In this document: one piece after another, positions 1,926-37,251 of the stretch
Layout of the letters: each line of letters opens with the position of its first letter
How positions within the stretch are numbered: position 1 is the first letter of the stretch
Source of the DNA: Desulfocapsa sp.
Lineage (GTDB): Bacteria > Desulfobacterota > Desulfobulbia > Desulfobulbales > Desulfocapsaceae
Assembly: GCA_022712895.1 (NCBI GenBank)
Contig: JAFLJS010000028.1
Span: 1-64,000, forward strand
DNA: 64,000 nt
Direction of reading: 5' to 3'
Notes under the pieces: generated by a model
The model's input: the letters and a program-made list of their open reading frames with translations, nothing else
The model's database searches: none
What the model was told of the DNA's origin: nothing
Program-made: the position numbers and the translations under genes

Positions 1926-4685
1926 TCATATTTGGGTGAGCATCAACTCTAACTCTCCCCTAACTTCTTGAAATTCAAGATCGAGCTCAGCTGAGAGTCG
2001 CTGTGCCTCTTTTCGTTCAAGTCTGTTCTGTCGGGCCAGCGCTTCAAGTTCCTGACAAATTGCAGCAAAGAACTCAGCACCTATCTGACCATTGGTGGAT
2101 TTCATGGTATGTGCTGCTTTCCAGATTACTTCTTGATCAAAGGCGTTAATACCCTGCTGAATTGCATCAAGCAGTGCAGGTGCACACTCAAGATAGTGTT
2201 TAATCATTCTCCTCTGAACATTTTCCTGCCCGGAATGCGTAAGATTTTTAAACATATTCAACATCTCAGGATTAAGATGTTGCATTTTGACAGTATGCGA
2301 GGAGTAAATGGTACGGGAATGATTCTGTGTCTGAACACTTTTTCCGTGTAGTAACCTACCTATAACATTAAAGAGTTGTTTATCATTGAAGGGTTTACTC
2401 TGGTAGTCATCCATTCCGGCGGCAAAACATTGCATACGATCCGCTGCCATGGCATGAGCCGTCATAGCGATGATTGGAATATGCCCACCGCCAAGATTTG
2501 TTTTTAAAGCCTGGATCAGGCTAACTGGCAAATCGAGGACAATCTCTTCACCTTTTTCACTGGCCCTGATCACAGAACTAGCCATAAGTCCATCCATACG
2601 CGGCATCTGTACATCCATAAGGATGATATCATAACGATCTTTAGCCAATATCTCTAAGGCCTCCAAACCATCATTTGCCATCATCACTTTATGATCTTCC
2701 TGCTCAAGGATTATTCTGGCTATGTCCTGATTAAACTCATTATCTTCAACCAGAAGAACTCGCAGAGGTGGCAGGGGAACAGACAACCCATCAAATTCAT
2801 CTCGAGTGGGAAGCTCATCGCGCCCAGCCAGATCGACAACGACGGTAAAAGTAAACACAGACCCCTGGTTAAGCACACTGCTTACCTGAATATCTCCGCC
2901 CATAAGCTGACAGATCTGTTTACAAATAGACAGACCAAGACCTGTTCCACCAAATTTTCTGGTGGTACTGCTGTCAGCCTGGGTGAACAGATCAAAAATA
3001 TTTTCCACATTCTCCGGGCTAATGCCAACTCCGGTGTCAGTGATAATAAATTGCAAGACACAATTTTTTTCTGTTTTTGAATGAAGACTTGCTCGCAGTG
3101 TAACCGTTCCCTGATCAGTGAATTTGATTCCGTTACTTAACACATTCAAAATGACCTGGCGAAGACGCAGACTGTCACCACGTACAGCGGCAGGGATATC
3201 TTCAGCAACCTCAGCTTTAAGGGTAATCTTCTTGTCTTTTGCCAGGATAGTCATGGTCTGAACAGCCAGATCAACAATTTTTCCCGGAGAAAACGGATGT
3301 TCTTCAAGTTCAAGCTGCCCCGCTTCAATCTTCGACAGGTCAAGAATATCATTCACCAGACACAATAACGAATCTGAAGAAACTTTCACCGACTCCAGGT
3401 AATGTATCTGCTGCGCTGTGAGTGAGGTGTTGAGGGTGAGATTGGTCATGCCTATAATAGCATTCATTGGCGTTCTTATCTCATGGCTCATATTAGCCAG
3501 GAATTCAGACTTTATCCTATCAGCTTTTTCTGCAACTCTTCTGGCCTCAGCAAGTTCATTATAGCTTTTCTCAAGGTTCCCCATCATTTCATTGAAATCA
3601 ATAGCCATCTGCTCCATCTCATCAAGGGAACCTTTTGCTATTTTATCTTCTGGAACCGGAAGACGCATCCCTAACCCACCATCACCTACTGCTACGGAAC
3701 GCAAGACATCAATGAGACGATTCAACTGACCAAAAATTCGAATCTTCAAAAAAACGATGAGAATAATTGAGACAATGACTGAGATGACAATGGGAATAAG
3801 CAGGTTGATAAGGAGATGTCTCTGCTCTCTGAAAAACGGGCTACTGTCAGTGGCTACCACCAAGTTAGCAATTGTCAAACCCTGAAAATCAGCAATAGGC
3901 TTTACATCTGTAAAGTATGATTTCCCGTTCAGCTTCAACATACCATTTTCCGGATACGGAACCTGGCGACTGGGCAAACTGCTAAGCGCTGTATTGTTGT
4001 TTCTATCAAAATAAATAACACTGTCTTCAACAATCTCTTCCATTTTCCCCGCAAGTTCTTTGTTACCATTAATAAATTTTACCAACACAAAATAACCGGA
4101 TATTTCTCCGGTATCGTGAAGTAAATGAACAAGGGACTTAAAGCAGAGAATGTGACTCTGGGTTATGTCAAACTCCAGGTATGGCAACTGCTGAGCAACG
4201 ATATCCGCAGGAATCTGGGAGACCCCTATACGTTCGTTGAGATCATCAAGCAGTATACTGTAATCCAGAGGATTGGGTAATACACTCTGCATTCGATGAT
4301 TGGTGGTCAGAAGCTTTCCATTCTCATTAAAAAAGAAGATAATATCGAGTTTATGAATATGAGCAATTGTATCCAACATGATTTTGATGGACTTAATTTT
4401 ATCATAATCAAGGAAGTTAGCAATTTTCTGATTCTGTTCTCGAATGATGGAAAGTGTATTGCGATGATTTTCCAATTCGTTGTTGTGAATAGCCTCAAGC
4501 ATCCCTAGTTTGACCGTCAAATCAATAGCTCGGTGTTGCTGTGCAAAGATATTTTGCTGCACGTAAATATATGTCCCACTGCCGATAATTGCCAAAACTA
4601 ACAAGACAAACAGGAGTGCGATGTATTTGCGGAGCACTGTCTTACGACCATACTTTGCCTGACTCGCTGTTGAGAATTGACTCAA
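1926..4685 (-). CDS. Membrane-bound hybrid sensor histidine kinase (BarA-like)
   Basis: About 919 residues. Order: membrane segment near residues 20-40; a periplasmic sensor of about 250 residues that looks like a CACHE fold; a second membrane segment near 295-315; HAMP; phosphoacceptor domain with [16 protein letters not shown] (His about 401); HATPase with [16 protein letters not shown] and GGTGLGLSI; a receiver with [10 protein letters not shown] and phosphoacceptor Asp in [11 protein letters not shown]; and an Hpt domain with [13 protein letters not shown]. This is a complete internal phosphorelay, but no output regulator is adjacent. The frame is open to an ATG-like start at 4799, but that overlaps the rhodanese by over 100 bases. 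A TTG at 4685 with AGGA about 11 bases upstream starts just after the rhodanese stop and is preferred. Cotranscription with the rhodanese is likely, so redox or sulfur sensing is possible (inference). Confidence 0.9.
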
Positions 4686-4692
4686 AATGGTT

Positions 4693-5496
4693 TTATTCCT
4701 GTGGGATATAACGTAAGTCTGATTTATCAAAACGATCTCGTTCTTCAACCGCTCTTTGTTCTGCCTTCCAGCGCTCGATTCCACCCTTAAGAACACCAAA
4801 CACTTTATATCCTTTCCCCTGCAAAAACTTTGCAGCTATAACAGACTGACGCATGGCCCAATCCGTTATGATAAGAGGCTTATTTTGAGGGATTTCAGTA
4901 TACCACTTGTCTAAATGCACTAGAGGACAAAAATAAGCGCCTTCAATAAATGAACCATTTTTTATAAAATCACTGGGCCGCACATCAAGTATATAAAGAT
5001 CATCACTTTTGAGCAGTTGTTCCAGGTTTACCGGCGATACTTTGTTTACTTTTTGAGATTGCCATTTTTTATTAACCACCATTGGATAGTTAAACTTACG
5101 CCACTCCGGAATTCCTCCAACAAAGGAAAAGACATTATTATAACCAAGATCTGCTGCAAAACCTGCAGCACGAGTGCTGTAAGGTCACCTTATCCCCATG
5201 CAATAGAAAATAAGGATCGTATTCATATCTTCCGGTAACTTTTCAGTAACCTTCATGGTGATAACCGGAATATTGATTGAAGTCGGAATGTGCTGAATTT
5301 CAAATTCTATAGCACTTAAGGTATTGATGAGAACAACATTCCCATTATCCACCATATTTTTCACTTCCGGGGCGGTTAGGGATTGTATTTTTTCTGCCTG
5401 CGCAGAGGACAACAAAAACATGCCGCAGCTAACACACAGAAGTAGGAAAGCAACAGATCGTTTCCGTAATATCCTCACGCAACACACCCCTTTCAT
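4693..5496 (-). CDS. Exported tandem rhodanese, predicted selenoprotein (UGA at 5185-5187)
   Basis: Two open stretches (5496-5188 and on to 4693) are in the same frame, separated only by a TGA at 5187-5185. Read through, they give 267 residues: a signal peptide (1-35), rhodanese domain 1 (about 37-135) and domain 2 (about 150-255). The TGA is codon 104 in the loop FYCMGIR-U-PYSTRAA. Related deltaproteobacterial rhodaneses, as recalled, have Cys there (YCxGxKCPLS), so Sec replaces the second loop Cys and Cys99 is retained. Conserved rhodanese sequence ([15 protein letters not shown]) continues after the UGA. Domain 2 has Asp where the catalytic Cys should be (ITDWAMRQS) and is probably inactive. 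A SECIS-like hairpin follows the UGA. The likely role is periplasmic sulfane-sulfur or selenium/thiol redox chemistry. The alternative, a recent nonsense mutation, fits poorly with the hairpin and the intact downstream frame. A GTG 18 bases inside is an alternative start. Confidence 0.82.
5152..5170 (-). promoter_or_regulatory. Bacterial SECIS-like hairpin after the rhodanese UGA
   Basis: On the minus strand, UGCUGCA (5170-5164) pairs perfectly with UGCAGCA (5158-5152) around a five-base loop GGUUU (5163-5159). The loop begins 21 bases after the UGA at 5185, inside the spacing known for bacterial SECIS elements, and opens with the GGU typical of SelB-recognised loops. A competing hairpin (CAGCAC/GTGCTG, 5179-5166) overlaps it. 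Confidence 0.75.
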
Positions 5497-6001: not shown

Positions 6002-7279
6002 ATGACTACAACGCTTCCTTTTCATAAATTTCAAACTACTCTATTTTGCGGTTTTTTCTTCCTTATCCTCTTTATTCTTCTCAGTTCCTGCCAGGAGTCC
6101 CAAAAGATTTCTGAATGCAAGGATACGCTAGGTTGCGTAACTATCTCAGCGGGTGCCCCCCTGCAAATCGGCGTGCTTCAGGCCCTGAGTGGACAGGTGG
6201 CTCCACTTGGTCAAGCCCAGCTAAGAGGCCTTGAGCTTGCACTAGACAAACGAGAGCACACACTGCTGGGTCACCGGATAGTCACACAAGTAGAAGACAC
6301 TGGTTGTACCGCCGAGGGAGGAGCAAATTCAGTCCTCAAACTGATAGCAAACCCACAAACTGTGGCGATTTTTGGTTCAACCTGTTCAGGGGCTGCTGCC
6401 ACAGCCTCGAAAGCAATGTCTGCGGCTGGACTTACTATGATCTCCGGGAACAACTCCGCCCCGTTTCTCACGTCCATTGCCGGCACTGCCGCTCCGAATT
6501 TCGAGAAAGGATATTTCAGAACAGCTGCCAATGAGGAAAATGCAGGAAAGGCTGCGGCAGAATACGTATACCTGAAACTCGGTCTTAAAAATGCCGCCAC
6601 AATCCATGACAATGACATTTACACACGTGGCCTAGTTGAAAGTTTTCAGAAAGCATTCCTGGAAATGGGTGGGAAGATTGTACTCGCTACTGCCATAAAC
6701 AAAGGTGATACTATGATGGAGCCAGTGCTACAGGCTGTGGGCAAATCTCAGACGCAGCTCTTGTTCTTTCCCTTGTTCCAACCGGAAGGCAACCATATCC
6801 TTCTACAAGCTAGAAAACTTTTCTCCTTTAACGAGATCCTACTCATTAGCGATGGCGCACTCATCGAACAGAGTTTTATCCAGGAAGTCGGAGATGCGGC
6901 AAAAGGAATGTACTTTGTCGGCCCCCAACGCCCCACTGGAACAGCAGTGATGCGTCTCACAGAAACATATCAAAAAAAGTACAATGAAGCTCCTTCAGCA
7001 AGCTACTTTTTCAGTGCCTTTGATGCCGCAGAGCTTCTGTTCCATGCAATTGAATCCATTGCCACACAGGGAAAAGATGGAACACTCCATATCGGTCGTG
7101 AAGCTCTGCGAAATGCCCTGTATAACACCTCAGCATACCACGGAGTAACCGGACTTTTGAGTTGTGATCAATTTGGAGATTGCGGAAATGCGGCCTTTAA
7201 TATTCTTCGTCTTGATGTTCCCGAACAGGGTATTGATGGCCTTGAATCTAATATTGTTCACTCATGGGTATCAAAATGA
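6002..7279 (+). CDS. ABC-type branched-chain amino acid/amide-like periplasmic binding lipoprotein
   Basis: A 425-residue type I periplasmic binding protein of the LivJ/Peripla_BP_6 group. The N terminus is a lipoprotein signal with lipobox LSSC (Cys30). The mature part begins with the typical LQIGVLQALSGQVAPLGQAQLRG and has the two-lobe pattern (IFGSTCSGAA, FRTAANEENAGKAAAEYVY, GKIVLATAINKGDTMMEP, YFFSAFDAAELLFHAI). No permease or ATPase genes follow. It is 31 bases upstream of a membrane hybrid kinase in the same orientation, so it more likely acts as a ligand-sensing partner of that kinase than as a transporter component (inference). A ribosome binding site is at about 5980. Confidence 0.88.
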   Translation: MTTTLPFHKFQTTLFCGFFFLILFILLSSCQESQKISECKDTLGCVTISAGAPLQIGVLQALSGQVAPLGQAQLRGLELALDKREHTLLGHRIVTQVEDTGCTAEGGANSVLKLIANPQTVAIFGSTCSGAAATASKAMSAAGLTMISGNNSAPFLTSIAGTAAPNFEKGYFRTAANEENAGKAAAEYVYLKLGLKNAATIHDNDIYTRGLVESFQKAFLEMGGKIVLATAINKGDTMMEPVLQAVGKSQTQLLFFPLFQPEGNHILLQARKLFSFNEILLISDGALIEQSFIQEVGDAAKGMYFVGPQRPTGTAVMRLTETYQKKYNEAPSASYFFSAFDAAELLFHAIESIATQGKDGTLHIGREALRNALYNTSAYHGVTGLLSCDQFGDCGNAAFNILRLDVPEQGIDGLESNIVHSWVSK

Positions 7280-7310
7280 ATAGAACTTCTTTCGAAACTC
7301 ACAGGCTCCC

Positions 7311-10040
7311 ATGAAACGATTATTGCCACACTGGAATACACTGGGTCTTACGAAAAAATTCAGCCTTGTTTTCAGTCTGCTCTTCTCCTTTATTTTTATT
7401 ATTGCTGCAGTGAGTTACGTGTCTTTTCTTTACATTAACAAAGCTGAGAAAAACATCCTGAAAAGCATTCAGATTGAACGGTTGGTTCTGCAAATGAATC
7501 ATGGACAACAGAAAGCCAGGCAACTCATTGGTTCCTTCTTCCTCCACCAACAACAATCCTCTCTCCAAGAGGCCCATGAACGCTATGCCCAACCCTCTGT
7601 CAGTGAAATTGCACGTGTCATATCACTGAGCAATGAGTTAAAAAAACTTCTTTTTCATAAAACCGAATCTTCCATCAGAGGAATTACGCAGACAGATCTT
7701 AACCTCTACCTGGCATCTGCTAAACGTTTTGCAGACACGTCCATCGAAGCGGTGGAACTAGTCTCCCGAAGAGGAGCACCTGAAATAGGTGTCCAGGCCA
7801 GGTTACGCATCAATGCTACCTCGCTTGCAAAAGAGATACGTAACCATCCTTCATTACAAGTACAATACTTGAACATGGTGAGTATCTACAAAGACTATCT
7901 AATTTCAAGACAACGCCCCGTTATGCAGAGAGCACTGAATATGCTTAGCGAACTGCAAACTGTTATTACCCAAAATACTTCTTTCACAGCCAACGAAAAG
8001 GGCATCTTTCTAAAGCAATTTGTCAGTATGCGAAATCTTGCTCAAGAACTGCTCAATATTGACCTCGCAATATCCAGTACGATTAATGATTTTTCTCTCC
8101 AGGAGCAAATCACAGAACGTATCTCTCTGACCCTTATTCAACAAAGTCAGCAAGAAGTATCTTTTGCCCAGAATCATATCCAACTAACTCAGCAAATACT
8201 TGGTTATGTTATTTTGACCATAGCACTACTCGCTTTTTTTGCCGTCCTTAGCCTTGCCCGTCTTATGCAGGCAAGTGTCACCTATAGGGTTCTCAGCCTC
8301 GCAAAAGCTGCCAGAGAATACAGTAAAGGCAATATGGGAGTTCGGGTTCGGGTGGATGACGATGATGATGAACTTGGACTGCTTGGCACAAGTTTTAATT
8401 CCATGGCCGGACGTTTAAATGACCTGGTTATAACCCTCGAAGATAAGGTGGAAAAACGAACCGCAGACCTGGCTATTCGCGAAGCTTTCTATCGGCAGCT
8501 TTTCGACCATGGAAGTAATGCTATCGCAGTTTACAAAGCTGTGAACGAGGGACAGGACTTTGTATTCGTCGACTTCAATCAGGCAGGTGAAAAGATAGAA
8601 CACATTCAGAAAGAAGAAATTATAGGTAGAAAAGTGGATGAAGTGTTTCCAAGACTGAAAGACACTGGTCTGCTTGATACATTTCGGGAAGTGTGGAAAA
8701 GTGGTGAGCCATTATCTCATCCTGATTTTTACTATGAAGATAGTCGGATAGAAGGATGGCGACAAAATCGGGTTTACAAACTTCCAACTGGTGAAATTGT
8801 AGCGATGTATGATGATCTCACTAGGCAAAAACGTGCTGAGCAGGAAAAAGAGATTATGGAGCAGCAACTTCTGCAAGCGCAAAAGATGGAGGCAATTGGC
8901 CTGCTAGCTGGAGGAGTAGCCCACGATCTAAACAATATTCTCACGGCAGTGATAAACTACCCGGAAATCCTTTTGCTGCAATTACCAGAAGAAAGCCCAT
9001 TACGTACTCCCATAATCCAGATACGAGAATCAGGTTTACGTGCCGCCGCTGTGGTTGCCGACCTCCTCACCGTGGCACGTGGTGTCGCCAATAAAATGGA
9101 AACCGCTGACCTCAATCAATTGATAGCCACTTTCCTTGAGTCTTCGGAATTCGGTCAGATTAAAACTGACCATTCACATATTCACTATTCGGCAGATCTT
9201 GGAGAACATCTGTCAAACATTACCTGTTCAACCGTCCATGTGATAAAATGCATTATGAACCTGGTCATTAACGGATCCGAAGCAATTCCTGCAACAGGTG
9301 AAGTGACCATACAGTCCCGAAAAGAACTTCTCAACGCGCGTCAGGCTGTGAAATACTGTCTAGACCCTGTCTCATATATTGTACTGGCCATAAGCGATAC
9401 CGGGAAAGGCATTTCCGAAGCGGACTTAGATCATATCTTCGAACCCTTTTACACCAAAAAAGTAATGAGCAAAAAAAGTGGAACGGGTCTCGGTCTATCC
9501 ATTGTCTGGAACACTATGCAGGACCACGGTGGTGGTGTGGTCGTACACAGCAGTAAAAAAGGCACACGCTTTGATCTCTATTTCCCAATTTCTGCTGACC
9601 AGCATATTAAAAAGAAACTACTCCCGACACTTAATGAATTGAGAGGAAGTGGTGAAACAATTCTGATTGTTGACGACGAGCCACAACTACGAAAGATTGC
9701 CATGACAATTCTCCAGGAACTTGGTTATATAACTATTTGTAAAGAATCTGGAGAGGATGCGGTTTCGTATCTGCAAACACACTCCGTTGACTTACTGCTT
9801 CTCGACATGATTATGGATCCTGGTATGAATGGGCGTAAAACTTTCGAACAAATACTTCGCATACATCCCAAGCAGAAAGCCCTGCTCGTCAGTGGCTTTT
9901 CTGAAAACGCTGAAGTTGATAAAGCTCTGGCGCTGGGAGCTGGAGCTTTTATCAAAAAACCATATTCAATGTATGAACTCGGAGAAGCTATCCTTGATAT
10001 TTTGCAAAAAACAATGGAGTTAGCTTATGACAACCGTTAA
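7311..10040 (+). CDS. Membrane hybrid histidine kinase, PAS plus C-terminal receiver
   Basis: About 909 residues. Two membrane segments (about 15-40 and 296-318) flank a helical periplasmic region of about 250 residues, followed by HAMP with an acidic DDDDDELGLLG stretch, PAS (about 395-505), a phosphoacceptor domain with VAHDLNNILTAVINYPEIL, an HATPase domain ([17 protein letters not shown]), and a receiver opening LIVDDEPQLRK with phosphoacceptor Asp in LLLLDMIMDPGMNG. There is no DNA-binding output. The 3' end overlaps the start of the HDOD-GGDEF gene by 14 bases, so translation is coupled, and the preceding gene encodes a binding lipoprotein. This suggests a ligand-protein/kinase/c-di-GMP chain (inference). 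The kinase core and receiver closely resemble those of the gene at 42440-44356, which also neighbours an HDOD gene. Confidence 0.9.
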   Translation: MKRLLPHWNTLGLTKKFSLVFSLLFSFIFIIAAVSYVSFLYINKAEKNILKSIQIERLVLQMNHGQQKARQLIGSFFLHQQQSSLQEAHERYAQPSVSEIARVISLSNELKKLLFHKTESSIRGITQTDLNLYLASAKRFADTSIEAVELVSRRGAPEIGVQARLRINATSLAKEIRNHPSLQVQYLNMVSIYKDYLISRQRPVMQRALNMLSELQTVITQNTSFTANEKGIFLKQFVSMRNLAQELLNIDLAISSTINDFSLQEQITERISLTLIQQSQQEVSFAQNHIQLTQQILGYVILTIALLAFFAVLSLARLMQASVTYRVLSLAKAAREYSKGNMGVRVRVDDDDDELGLLGTSFNSMAGRLNDLVITLEDKVEKRTADLAIREAFYRQLFDHGSNAIAVYKAVNEGQDFVFVDFNQAGEKIEHIQKEEIIGRKVDEVFPRLKDTGLLDTFREVWKSGEPLSHPDFYYEDSRIEGWRQNRVYKLPTGEIVAMYDDLTRQKRAEQEKEIMEQQLLQAQKMEAIGLLAGGVAHDLNNILTAVINYPEILLLQLPEESPLRTPIIQIRESGLRAAAVVADLLTVARGVANKMETADLNQLIATFLESSEFGQIKTDHSHIHYSADLGEHLSNITCSTVHVIKCIMNLVINGSEAIPATGEVTIQSRKELLNARQAVKYCLDPVSYIVLAISDTGKGISEADLDHIFEPFYTKKVMSKKSGTGLGLSIVWNTMQDHGGGVVVHSSKKGTRFDLYFPISADQHIKKKLLPTLNELRGSGETILIVDDEPQLRKIAMTILQELGYITICKESGEDAVSYLQTHSVDLLLLDMIMDPGMNGRKTFEQILRIHPKQKALLVSGFSENAEVDKALALGAGAFIKKPYSMYELGEAILDILQKTMELAYDNR

Positions 10041-11535
10041 AGAACTTTTTGATGAGAAGGTAAGGCTCCCTTCCCCTCCCGCAATTGCTCTGAAAATTCT
10101 GGAAGCTGTTCGACAAGAAGACAACTCTTTTGAGGATCTTGCTCAAATTATCATGTCAGACCCTTCCCTTGCAATACGTGTTCTGACAGTTGCCAATTCG
10201 TCCCTTTATGGACTTAGCCAGCCAGTCACATCTCTTTCCCAAGCCACTGGACTTATTGGCACTGACGCATTAAAAAACATCGCTTTATCATTCGTCATCG
10301 TGCAAGAATTTCAGAATCCTTCCCAGGGAAGCTTCGATCTGGAGTATTTTTGGCGCAGGTCTGTAACAACTGCTGTTGCTGCCGATGTCCTTGGCAACGC
10401 AGTTAAGCACAATGATCAGGACTTGTTCGTATCAGGGTTATTACAGGATATTGGAATCCTCATCCTCTTCCTTTCACTGCCTGAGGATTATACAACTGTT
10501 CTCGATGGGAAGAGAGTCAGTGGCGAGAACCTCTGCACAGCAGAAAAAAAACAGTTCTCCTGTGATCACACAGAAATTGCCTCTTACCTTCTCACTACAT
10601 GGAACCTCCCCGAATCTATCAGAGAGCCCATTCGCAATTCCCATTCGCCCCAAGAGGCAAAAGAGCTGCACAAAAAATCAGCCACGATACTGGAATGTGC
10701 GGACAAAATATCTGCGATCTACCACGGCCTGCACAGTACCAGTAAAGCCAAAGATGTCCGAACTGCCCTGGACATAAACTGGGGTTTTTCAGCAGAAAAA
10801 GTTGATGAATTGATAGATATTATAGGCGATCGTTCACGTGAAATTCTTGATTTATTTGCCATCGACCCTGGAAAAATAAAACCATTCTCCCTAATTATGC
10901 AGGAGGCGAATGAAGAATTAGGAGCTTTAAACCTTTCGTATGAACAGATCGTTATGGAGCTCAAACAGGCCAAACAAAATTCAGAACAACTTGCCAGGGA
11001 ATTGCAACTTGCTAACCTGAATCTTAAAAAACTCGCCTACCGGGATGGATTGACGGGCCTATACAACAAGAGATACTTCCATAAAGTTTTCACCACGGAA
11101 ATGGAACGATCTTTACGCTATAAACTGCCACTCACACTACTCCTGCTGGACATTGATTTTTTCAAGGATGTAAATGACACCTATGGGCATCCAGTTGGCG
11201 ATAAAGTACTGGTAATAGTCAGTAACATATTGTTACGGCTGGTACGAAATTCGGATATCGTGGCACGCTATGGAGGCGAAGAATTCACTGTAATTTTGCC
11301 GGAAACCGGTACTAAGGGAGCAACAGTACTGGCCCAACGCCTGCGGAGAGGGATTGCGCAGGAGCAGCTCATAAGCGGAGACCAGACTTTCTCAGTAACA
11401 GTAAGCATAGGTCTTGCTGGCACCAATCTGGTGCAAAAAGACCTGCATCCCGACACCCTTATTGAATGCAGCGATCAGGCACTGTATAAAGCAAAACAAA
11501 ATGGACGTAACAGAGTTGAACAGTTCATTATTTAA
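10027..11535 (+). CDS. HDOD-GGDEF protein, probable diguanylate cyclase
   Basis: A 502-residue cytoplasmic protein. The N-terminal HDOD domain (about 10-215) has the typical LPSPPAIALKILEAV opening, DPSLAIRVLTVANSSLYG and a metal-lacking HD-like core. A coiled-coil linker (about 300-330) leads to a GGDEF domain (about 335-500) with YRDGLTGLYNKRYF, LLLDIDFFKDVNDTYGH and active-site GGEEF. An RNSD motif five residues before GGEEF is a recognisable inhibitory I-site, so product inhibition by c-di-GMP is expected. The active site looks intact, so it should make c-di-GMP. It starts inside the end of the upstream kinase gene and probably takes its signal from that kinase. Confidence 0.92.
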   Translation: MTTVKELFDEKVRLPSPPAIALKILEAVRQEDNSFEDLAQIIMSDPSLAIRVLTVANSSLYGLSQPVTSLSQATGLIGTDALKNIALSFVIVQEFQNPSQGSFDLEYFWRRSVTTAVAADVLGNAVKHNDQDLFVSGLLQDIGILILFLSLPEDYTTVLDGKRVSGENLCTAEKKQFSCDHTEIASYLLTTWNLPESIREPIRNSHSPQEAKELHKKSATILECADKISAIYHGLHSTSKAKDVRTALDINWGFSAEKVDELIDIIGDRSREILDLFAIDPGKIKPFSLIMQEANEELGALNLSYEQIVMELKQAKQNSEQLARELQLANLNLKKLAYRDGLTGLYNKRYFHKVFTTEMERSLRYKLPLTLLLLDIDFFKDVNDTYGHPVGDKVLVIVSNILLRLVRNSDIVARYGGEEFTVILPETGTKGATVLAQRLRRGIAQEQLISGDQTFSVTVSIGLAGTNLVQKDLHPDTLIECSDQALYKAKQNGRNRVEQFII

Positions 11536-36301: not shown

Positions 36302-36497
36302 TGATGGCGTGGTATTTATGCCCGTAGTTAGGGTGAAAACTCTCCATCTCCTTCGTTGCTGCACATTTTATATCATTACGACGTACCTTAGTACGCCGAA
36401 ATGATATAAAATATTTGCGCCTCGGATATGAAGTTTTTCACCCGAACAAAGGGCATAAATACTTAACCATCTAAATTCTGGGTTTTTACGAGTTTAT
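36302..36497 (+). repeat. Palindromic repeat, copy 2 (complete)
   Basis: Bounded by GTATTTATGCCC (36311-36322) and its exact inverse GGGCATAAATAC (36450-36461). Inside is a second pair of ends GGGTGAAAA/TTTTTCACCC and a long imperfect palindrome centred near 36390. An outer block (36462-36497) ending TTTTTACGAGTTTATC is shared by all copies. The size (about 150-200 bases) and structure are those of a MITE or long palindromic element without a coding region. Confidence 0.85.
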
Positions 36498-36531
36498 CTT
36501 ATTTCACTCTCAACTATGCAGGAGGTATATT

Positions 36532-37251
36532 GTGGCAGAGAAAGCGGATATCGGCTGTGCCCGGCCGACAGGTGGGCCGGTAGGCGAGGAGCCAGTTCAA
36601 ACAAACCAGGAACAACAGACTATCAAAAAGGAGGAACAGAGCATGATAATGGTGGGACAGAAAGTGCCTGATTTTTCGGCACCAGGATACCAGAAGGGAG
36701 AGTTCGTAAACGTTAAGCTTTCAGACTATTTGGGGAAGTGGGTACTGCTCTGCTTCTATCCCGGTGATTTTACTTTTGTCTGAGCTACTGAAATATCGGC
36801 GGTCGCCGAAATCTATCCTGAGATCCAGAAGCTTGGTGTTGAAATTCTGTCCATGTCCATTGACTCAATGTTTGTCCACAAGATGTGGGATGATGATGAA
36901 TTGAAAAAGATGGTGGACGGTGGTGTTCCCTTTCCCATGCTCTCCGATGCGGGTGGGAAGGTGGGCAAGGTATACGGTGTTTTTGACGAGAATAATGGTG
37001 TGGAAACCCGTGGCCGTTTCATCATTGATCCCGATGGAGTTTTGCAAGGCTACGAAGTCTTGAGTCCACCTGTTGGCAGAAATGTCAACGAAACTATTCG
37101 CCAGCTACAGGCCTTTCAGCTTGTCCGTGAAACTGGAGGAGCAGAGGCAACACCCTCAGGCTGGACTCCTGGTAAAGCAACCCTGAAACCAGGAATTGAT
37201 CTGGTAGGCAAGGTGTGGAAGGTCTGGAAAACTGAACAAGCCTTTGATTAG
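36532..37251 (+). CDS. Selenocysteine peroxiredoxin (UGA at 36781-36783)
   Basis: The frame from the GTG at 36532 runs to TGA at 36781 and continues in frame to 37251, giving 239 residues. The TGA falls at the peroxidatic position of an AhpC/Prx protein (GDFTFV-U-ATE, where the family has Cys in FVCPTE), and the downstream part is a normal Prx ([32 protein letters not shown]). A strong internal ribosome binding site (AAGGAGG, 36628-36634) precedes an ATG at 36643; from there the protein has 202 residues with Sec at 47, the classic Prx numbering. The GTG at 36532 also has AGGAGG. The usual resolving Cys (VCPAxW) is Thr here (EATPSGW), so it should act as a 1-Sec enzyme using an outside thiol. 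It reduces peroxides. katG follows directly. Confidence 0.88.
36793..36812 (+). promoter_or_regulatory. Bacterial SECIS-like hairpin after the peroxiredoxin UGA
   Basis: CGGC (36797-36800) pairs with GCCG (36805-36808) around the loop GGUC, extended by U-A, a mismatch, and two more A-U pairs (36793-36796 with 36809-36812). The loop begins 17 bases after the UGA, within bacterial SECIS spacing, and carries the GGU typical of SelB binding. Confidence 0.75.

Follow-up and report, generated by a model that had tools for sequence, protein, structure and literature searches.

An exported tandem rhodanese that near certainly carries selenocysteine (Sec) at codon 104, as judged from comparison of homologs, is encoded in the Desulfocapsa sp. 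window (the whole stretch of DNA analysed, 64,000 nucleotides), and the comparative sequence evidence strongly supports a partnership between this protein and the periplasmic sensor of the kinase encoded directly downstream. We propose, as the likely reading, that the Sec-rhodanese acts as an extracytoplasmic co-receptor of this sensor, in the style of LuxP-LuxQ, and conveys a sulfur or redox signal via Cys99 and Sec104. The features are as follows, in coordinates of the window.

4693–5496, minus strand: exported two-domain Sec-rhodanese coding sequence, 267 residues with UGA read as Sec (Pfam and homologs)
5395–5496, minus strand: predicted signal peptide, residues 1–34, ending ...LSSAQA (read by eye)
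5095–5376, minus strand: rhodanese domain 1, residues 41–134, with the loop Y-C99-M-G-I-R-U104-P-Y-S (Pfam PF00581 and alignments)
5200–5202, minus strand: Cys99 codon, at the canonical rhodanese catalytic position (Cys in 35/35 close-family sequences)
5185–5187, minus strand: Sec104, in-frame TGA (UGA in 33/35 and Cys in 2/35 close-family sequences)
5152–5170, minus strand: putative SECIS-type hairpin, 7-bp stem UGCUGCA/UGCAGCA and loop GGUUU, the loop starting 22 nt after the UGA
4753–5058, minus strand: rhodanese domain 2, about residues 147–248 (approximate boundary), with Asp212 at the catalytic Cys position
1926–4685, minus strand: hybrid histidine kinase, the partner; the ORF is open from 4799 and the likely start is TTG 4685
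3801–4565, minus strand: periplasmic dCache/LuxQ-type sensor domain between two predicted transmembrane segments (model and profile)
3318–3512, minus strand: HisKA domain of the partner kinase (domain scan)
2841–3179, minus strand: HATPase_c domain of the partner kinase (domain scan)
1959–2207, minus strand: Hpt domain of the partner kinase (domain scan)

The rhodanese frame runs on the minus strand from ATG 5496 to TAA 4693–4695 and, as a preliminary description of this DNA had it, is interrupted by a single TGA, at codon 104 of 267. A GTG at 5478, with AAAGGGG upstream, may be the better start, and Sec would then be residue 98. The read-through product matched Pfam Rhodanese (PF00581) in two stretches (E 4e-25, 88.6 bits, cut-off 22.2), and comparison of structure models showed that its predicted fold matches known rhodaneses. 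The AlphaFold2 model has a helix at residues 10–28, in the signal-peptide region, at around 70 pLDDT. The same description had reported conserved rhodanese sequence past the UGA and the loss of the catalytic Cys from the second domain. Both points hold: the sequences that we compared are 45–59% identical downstream of the site, and Asp212 stands in place of the Cys in 34/34 close-family sequences that cover the position. It had also placed the TGA at the loop position where relatives carry Cys. The exchange was found, but the canonical catalytic residue is the invariant Cys99 and not residue 104. Thus, on these alignments, Sec104 lies five residues after the catalytic Cys (C-x4-U) and is not its replacement.

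The UGA taken alone is weak evidence, since the window holds four TGA codons with at least 100 open codons on either side and the 48 nt from this UGA fold no better than shuffled sequence (z of -0.99, 32/200 shuffles as good). The Sec reading is decided by the homologs. In the close family covering the site (n = 35, window protein included, copies removed), 33 sequences have UGA and two have Cys, the Cys/Sec exchange that the preliminary description had pointed to. We searched 144 related genomes, the Desulfocapsa genome itself included, and all 15 close homologs (at least 194 bits), from 10 genomes including the source genome, have exactly one TGA each. A first scan of named genomes with the single rhodanese protein gave no relative, a probable result of poor conservation in five of its six short patterns and of a Cys codon standing in for Sec in the remaining one. 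For the repeat scan we aligned the sequence downstream of the UGA and used patterns that avoid the UGA; it returned 26 loci, of which 23 have TGA, two have Cys (L093 and L094) and one lacks the site; eight of these loci are contigs already among the 144-genome matches. The viral contigs scanned held no rhodanese relatives. Close homologs with UGA at the codon 104 position are present in 24 genomes besides the source genome. Two adjacent Sec copies occur in five of the 144-genome set and in the named loci L078, L082 and L083. In the second copy the loop reads [HY]CLSxRU; the one copy seen in L088 is of this kind. More distant relatives carry either Cys at the site (FYCNGIKCGKS, FYCKGPKCNKS) or Sec (FFCKGPGULKS, FYCGGPTUGMS).

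Phylogenetic analysis placed the close family in one clade (support 100/99) with both Cys proteins inside it, while the basal forks are unsettled. The window protein groups with those of L072 and L074 (99/83) and not with those of three congeneric Desulfocapsa MAGs, a hint of transfer or of an ancient duplication. L093 and L094 are Thiotrichales MAGs that carry the Cys version of the rhodanese-sensor pair, with an OmpR-type response regulator beside the pair in L093. This suggests an inter-phylum transfer in which Sec was lost.

The source genome (3.68 Mb, 75 contigs) contains selA, selB, selC (77.3 bits) and selD, the four genes named as a check in the preliminary description, and its selD itself contains a UGA (Sec). 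We found selA in 22/24 of the UGA genomes tested (in G019 as a fragment only) and none in G526 and G529; tRNA-Sec scored 72.0 bits in G019 and 72.9 bits in G526, with none over the cut-off in G529. Neither of the two genomes with Cys loci has a detected selA (0/2), and their best tRNA-Sec matches score 48.7 and 45.5 bits, around a cut-off of 47 that 5/14 control genomes also pass. A second selenoprotein of the window is a peroxiredoxin (36475–37248, plus strand, TGA 36781–36783) of the known NCBIfam family PrxU (411.6 bits, cut-off 270), with its Sec at what we take to be the peroxidatic position. The source genome has two further rhodaneses with an in-frame TGA besides the window gene. A multi-rhodanese with one Sec (MYCGGPTUGMS) lies in a 443-codon frame on contig C43 of the same genome (L121, 4272–5591, minus strand), and among the relatives many matches of about 440 residues with one TGA are of this multi-rhodanese type.

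Next, we examined the hairpin. The 7-bp stem after the UGA stands as first described, with the correction that its loop comprises the five bases GGUUU rather than GGU alone. The 33 UGA sequences align without gaps, and RNAalifold, which recovers the stem unprompted, agrees with direct counting on a stem that joins nucleotides 16–22 to 26–32 after the UGA; the apical loop begins with G in the aligned UGA sequences. Columns 21 and 33, third positions of two Ala codons, pair in 33/33 sequences (CG 18, UA 11, UG 3, GC 1). The whole stem is paired in 97.8% of cells, compared with 92.5% after shuffling (0/500 shuffles as high). This percentage, the cells changed on both sides and the covariation score are each above all 500 shuffles, measures that kinship can inflate. 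Further pair types were reached by 7/500 shuffles. One of the five measures is not unusual, namely the count of pairs that changed on both sides (two, reached by 139/500 shuffles). Against slid controls, in which relatedness is kept, the covariation score is 0.271 versus 0.000–0.119. Compared with their own shuffles (p ≤ 0.1), the hairpin stands out in 34/38 UGA sequences and also in 11/18 Cys homologs, so this comparison does not by itself decide the matter. The count leaves out the fragment L096, an additional distant match in L031, and L026, which has both UGA and hairpin but whose loop the pattern missed. The mean hairpin energy is -9.5 kcal/mol in UGA sequences and -5.6 kcal/mol in Cys homologs (rank test 8e-5, ignoring kinship). 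In the hairpin scan the structure is weak or absent in 3/33 UGA sequences (copy a of L012, L078 and L083). Rfam gave no match in the window at the gathering score, nor around the UGA at E up to 5. The alignments support a SECIS-type hairpin with covariation at synonymous sites. Thus, the exported tandem Sec-rhodanese of the preliminary description is supported by site conservation, Cys/Sec exchange, a covarying hairpin and the Sec machinery, with export predicted from a signal peptide read by eye.

The likely TTG start of the partner kinase lies 7 nt past the rhodanese stop, and AGGAA, a possible ribosome site, falls inside the last rhodanese codons. A receiver domain is located between the HATPase and Hpt domains. 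By hydropathy, the partner proteins of nearly all loci have two transmembrane segments that flank a sensor of about 255 residues, the exceptions being L071, with one (its frame breaks after the sensor), and L073, with three. The sensors are homologous, with 23–37% identity to that of the window in a 17-sequence alignment, and in none of the proteins scanned with Pfam (E up to 0.001) was a domain named for the sensor region. Searched against PDB sequences, the sensor profile had no match at E of 0.05 or lower. We used AlphaFold2 to model the sensor (pLDDT 87.7), and the Foldseek matches of the model include many of dCache type, among them sporulation kinase D, LuxQ, PctA and DctB. LuxQ (2hje) has the highest TM-scores (0.61/0.72) among the 50 matches listed and is not first by E-value. 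The sensors have 0–3 Cys each, and the aligned sensors share no conserved Cys able to exchange with the rhodanese. Nine of 11 partner proteins scanned with Pfam have histidine-kinase domains, counting L074 with HATPase only, and several have a receiver and some an Hpt domain. L073 and L075 carry this sensor fused to a SpoIIE phosphatase in place of a kinase, and the rhodanese is still paired with it. Receivers, a GGDEF response regulator or an OmpR-type regulator lie nearby in some loci.

The position beside a kinase had been thought uncommon in the preliminary description. It is instead a conserved arrangement of the family, with the sensor adjacent in 10/10 genomes and downstream in 26/27 stretches. 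Strong sensor matches (E < 1e-90) in the 144 genomes fall in exactly the 10 genomes that hold the rhodanese, adjacent each time, a co-occurrence whose chance probability would be 1.3e-15 for independent genomes, although these are not independent of one another. In 395 genomes sampled evenly from the phylum, the close rhodanese and the strong sensor occur in the same three, and seven others have, at the threshold applied, distant rhodanese relatives only (93–125 bits). Weak sensor matches were seen in G068, from the 144 genomes, and G184, from the sample of 395 (31.8 and 52.9 bits), and no rhodanese was found in the 3.3–3.6 kb of sequence examined for these two kinases. A local profile located the sensor downstream of the rhodanese in 26 of the 27 stretches, within about 300 bp in 25 of them and about 760 bp away in the fragment L096; the one stretch without it, L095 from the same isolate, is a contig ending at the rhodanese gene. 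As a control, 41 other rhodanese loci, some in twice and mostly with 1.5-kb flanks, have a kinase core in four cases, in one of which (L059) the core is weak and lies downstream on the same strand, compared with six of 10 positive loci given equally short flanks.

With antisense frames set aside, the gene clusters common to at least 3/27 loci comprise signalling proteins (25 loci), TPR proteins (5), a 617-residue protein (4) and six lineage-specific clusters (3 each). No transporter or sulfur-pathway gene is among the annotated clusters of at least 3/27 loci, and neighbours seen at a single locus are mostly unannotated. Flexirubin-type biosynthesis, Bat/VWA, TPR and PBP1A neighbours occur in few loci each. 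The best argument for the sensor as the rhodanese's partner is that the two stay paired where the output has been swapped. Both Cys genomes retain the pair, indicating that Sec is not strictly required for pairing.

A second module of related design is present in the source genome (L120, 5244–8410, contig C56). An exported rhodanese with Sec at both loop positions (PYUMGYRU, UxxxxU) is encoded 5 bp ahead of a 777-residue kinase that has CTQCH in its presumed sensor part, and the same arrangement, with a heme-type CxxCH in the kinase, is found in four genomes besides this one. Among eight homologs (E < 1e-60) in the 144 genomes, the source genome included, seven have a kinase directly downstream; five combine UxxxxU with a CxxCH kinase and two combine CxxxxU with a kinase without CxxCH. 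The eighth has no TGA, and no kinase was found nearby. A further seven matches, weaker at E 8e-18 to 9e-16, lack an internal stop and were part of the kinase control. No similarity could be detected between the sensors of the second and first modules. In some genomes, both modules have BatA/BatB-like VWA genes in their vicinity (L085, 1317–3257, by NCBIfam; L120, 1552–5005, by eye). Elsewhere in the window (6002–11535, plus strand), a set divergent from the rhodanese gene comprises a Peripla_BP_6 periplasmic binding protein directly ahead of another hybrid kinase, then a signalling-type ORF, one more case of an exported protein beside a kinase.

Export and constant pairing with a periplasmic sensor point to a co-receptor as in LuxP-LuxQ, and the invariant Cys99 at the catalytic position with Sec or Cys five residues on suggests a persulfide or Cys-Sec switch. 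We propose that insertion of Sec at the UGA would yield a periplasmic selenoprotein beside the sensor. Cys99 of domain 1 would take up sulfane sulfur (from polysulfide, persulfide or thiosulfate) or be oxidised, and Sec104 would form or resolve a Cys-Sec bond, thereby controlling the loop's redox or persulfide state. A structural or docking role may fall to domain 2, which has lost its catalytic Cys. Once loaded or oxidised, the rhodanese would bind the dCache sensor and switch the output, a kinase or, in two loci, the SpoIIE phosphatase. We infer the contact with the sensor, the chemical signal and the direction of the switch.

Other explanations start from the UGA itself. It could be a genuine stop, leaving a truncated single-domain protein or a decaying gene, and ATG 5082 could restart the second domain; one genome alone would be compatible with this. 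The same UGA in 33/35 sequences, the frame kept beyond it at the identity given above, the covarying hairpin and Cys in two relatives without detectable selA make such a stop very improbable. A sequencing or assembly error in this one assembly of 75 contigs is more improbable still, given UGA at the site in close homologs of 24 further genomes.

Explanations that accept Sec differ over the role of the protein. Adjacency can also fit a kinase that regulates its neighbour, or two proteins in one common pathway, and the rhodanese may be a periplasmic enzyme (a sulfurtransferase, a polysulfide or thiosulfate reductase, or an electrophile detoxifier) while the kinase regulates the operon or senses the product. 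The rhodanese fold and the intact Cys99 would suit an enzyme. Redox functions are considered likely for most uncharacterised selenoproteins in the review PMC13188914, in the part covering them, and nine rhodaneses are thought to be involved in the sulfur disproportionation of Desulfocapsa sulfexigens in the relevant part of PMC3739170. However, the annotated clusters of at least 3/27 loci lack transporter and sulfur-pathway genes, and pairing tracks the sensor domain even where the output has changed, so we regard the enzyme as rather unlikely. Constant pairing would also be expected if the rhodanese were a chaperone or redox partner that serves only the folding or maturation of the sensor and takes no part in sensing. 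The sensors have few or no Cys to mature, though, and the invariant loop and retained Sec suggest chemistry of the rhodanese's own; we hold a purely maturational role to be improbable. The co-receptor reading is therefore the one we prefer.

We compared the pair with known systems. LuxQ acts through the periplasmic protein LuxP, and the gene of this exported partner is adjacent; LuxP has a sugar-binding-protein fold and binds AI-2. The kinase of LuxP-LuxQ from Vibrio (PDB 2hje, 2hj9, 1zhh) has a periplasmic domain of the same fold as our sensor, whereas the partner here is a Sec-rhodanese and not a LuxP-type periplasmic binding protein. Bacillus halodurans BH2092 (PDB 3nhv/3o3w) is a rhodanese of known structure whose two loop positions are both Cys (YCWGPAC), and differs in having one matched domain, 144 residues and Cys for Sec. 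The window protein is below every NCBIfam cut-off. It shares a rhodanese domain (52.8 bits) and Sec five residues after the first loop position with TsoB (NF045694, rhodanese/DsbD-fusion-like, UxxxxU). That family, for which the cited part of PMC13188914 names Haft and Tolstoy 2025 as the source, is represented by a fusion model of 572 positions that has two Sec and a cut-off of 805 bits, whereas the window protein has 267 residues, one UGA and no DsbD part. To NF041203 (rhodanese_LYCAU, form 3, CxU) it scores 78.4 bits, below the cut-off of 115, with CxxxxU versus CxU.

Five rhodanese-like selenoprotein forms are listed in the relevant part of the same 2026 review (PMC13188914). Form 1 (PF00581, UxxS, WP_010941598.1; its Table 1) is a one-Sec rhodanese that may include the window protein, since UPYS fits UxxS; the likeness is by motif alone, and UxxS also fits the UGMS of the roughly 440-residue multi-rhodanese of the source genome. 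Its description in the portion of the review that covers it has no kinase partner, and the main text mentions neither two-component systems nor sensors. PMC12013277 does not mention rhodanese, histidine kinase or two-component systems. A histidine kinase is itself predicted as a possible selenoprotein in the section of PMC8318568 on this subject, a different case. Literature searches, mostly without subscription papers, gave no description of a Sec-rhodanese/sensor pair and no match for a periplasmic rhodanese with a sensor kinase. By their titles, matches for rhodanese and histidine kinase concern Acidithiobacillus or its sulfur oxidation, and the match for selenoprotein and sensor histidine kinase appears to be a sulfate-reducer genome.

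Comparison of the two modules leads us to lean, with less assurance than for the co-receptor itself, towards a wider use of Sec as a signalling residue in sulfur-cycle bacteria, in which exported Sec-rhodaneses would be dedicated redox or sulfane-sulfur receptors of transmembrane sensors. CxxxxU and UxxxxU rhodaneses are joined to sensors that show no detectable likeness to one another, and the outputs of the CxxxxU type appear interchangeable. Sec in a signalling partner located outside the cytoplasm would, to our knowledge, be a use without precedent. Reviews of predicted selenoproteins list Sec-rhodaneses but assign them no settled function, and a constant gene partner gives the present family a testable signalling role. 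How sulfur-disproportionating and sulfate-reducing bacteria sense external elemental sulfur or polysulfide is, as far as we know, largely open, and the Sec-rhodanese/sensor module is a concrete candidate for such extracellular perception. The pairing suggests that selenium chemistry may serve bacteria in sensing extracellular sulfur or redox conditions.
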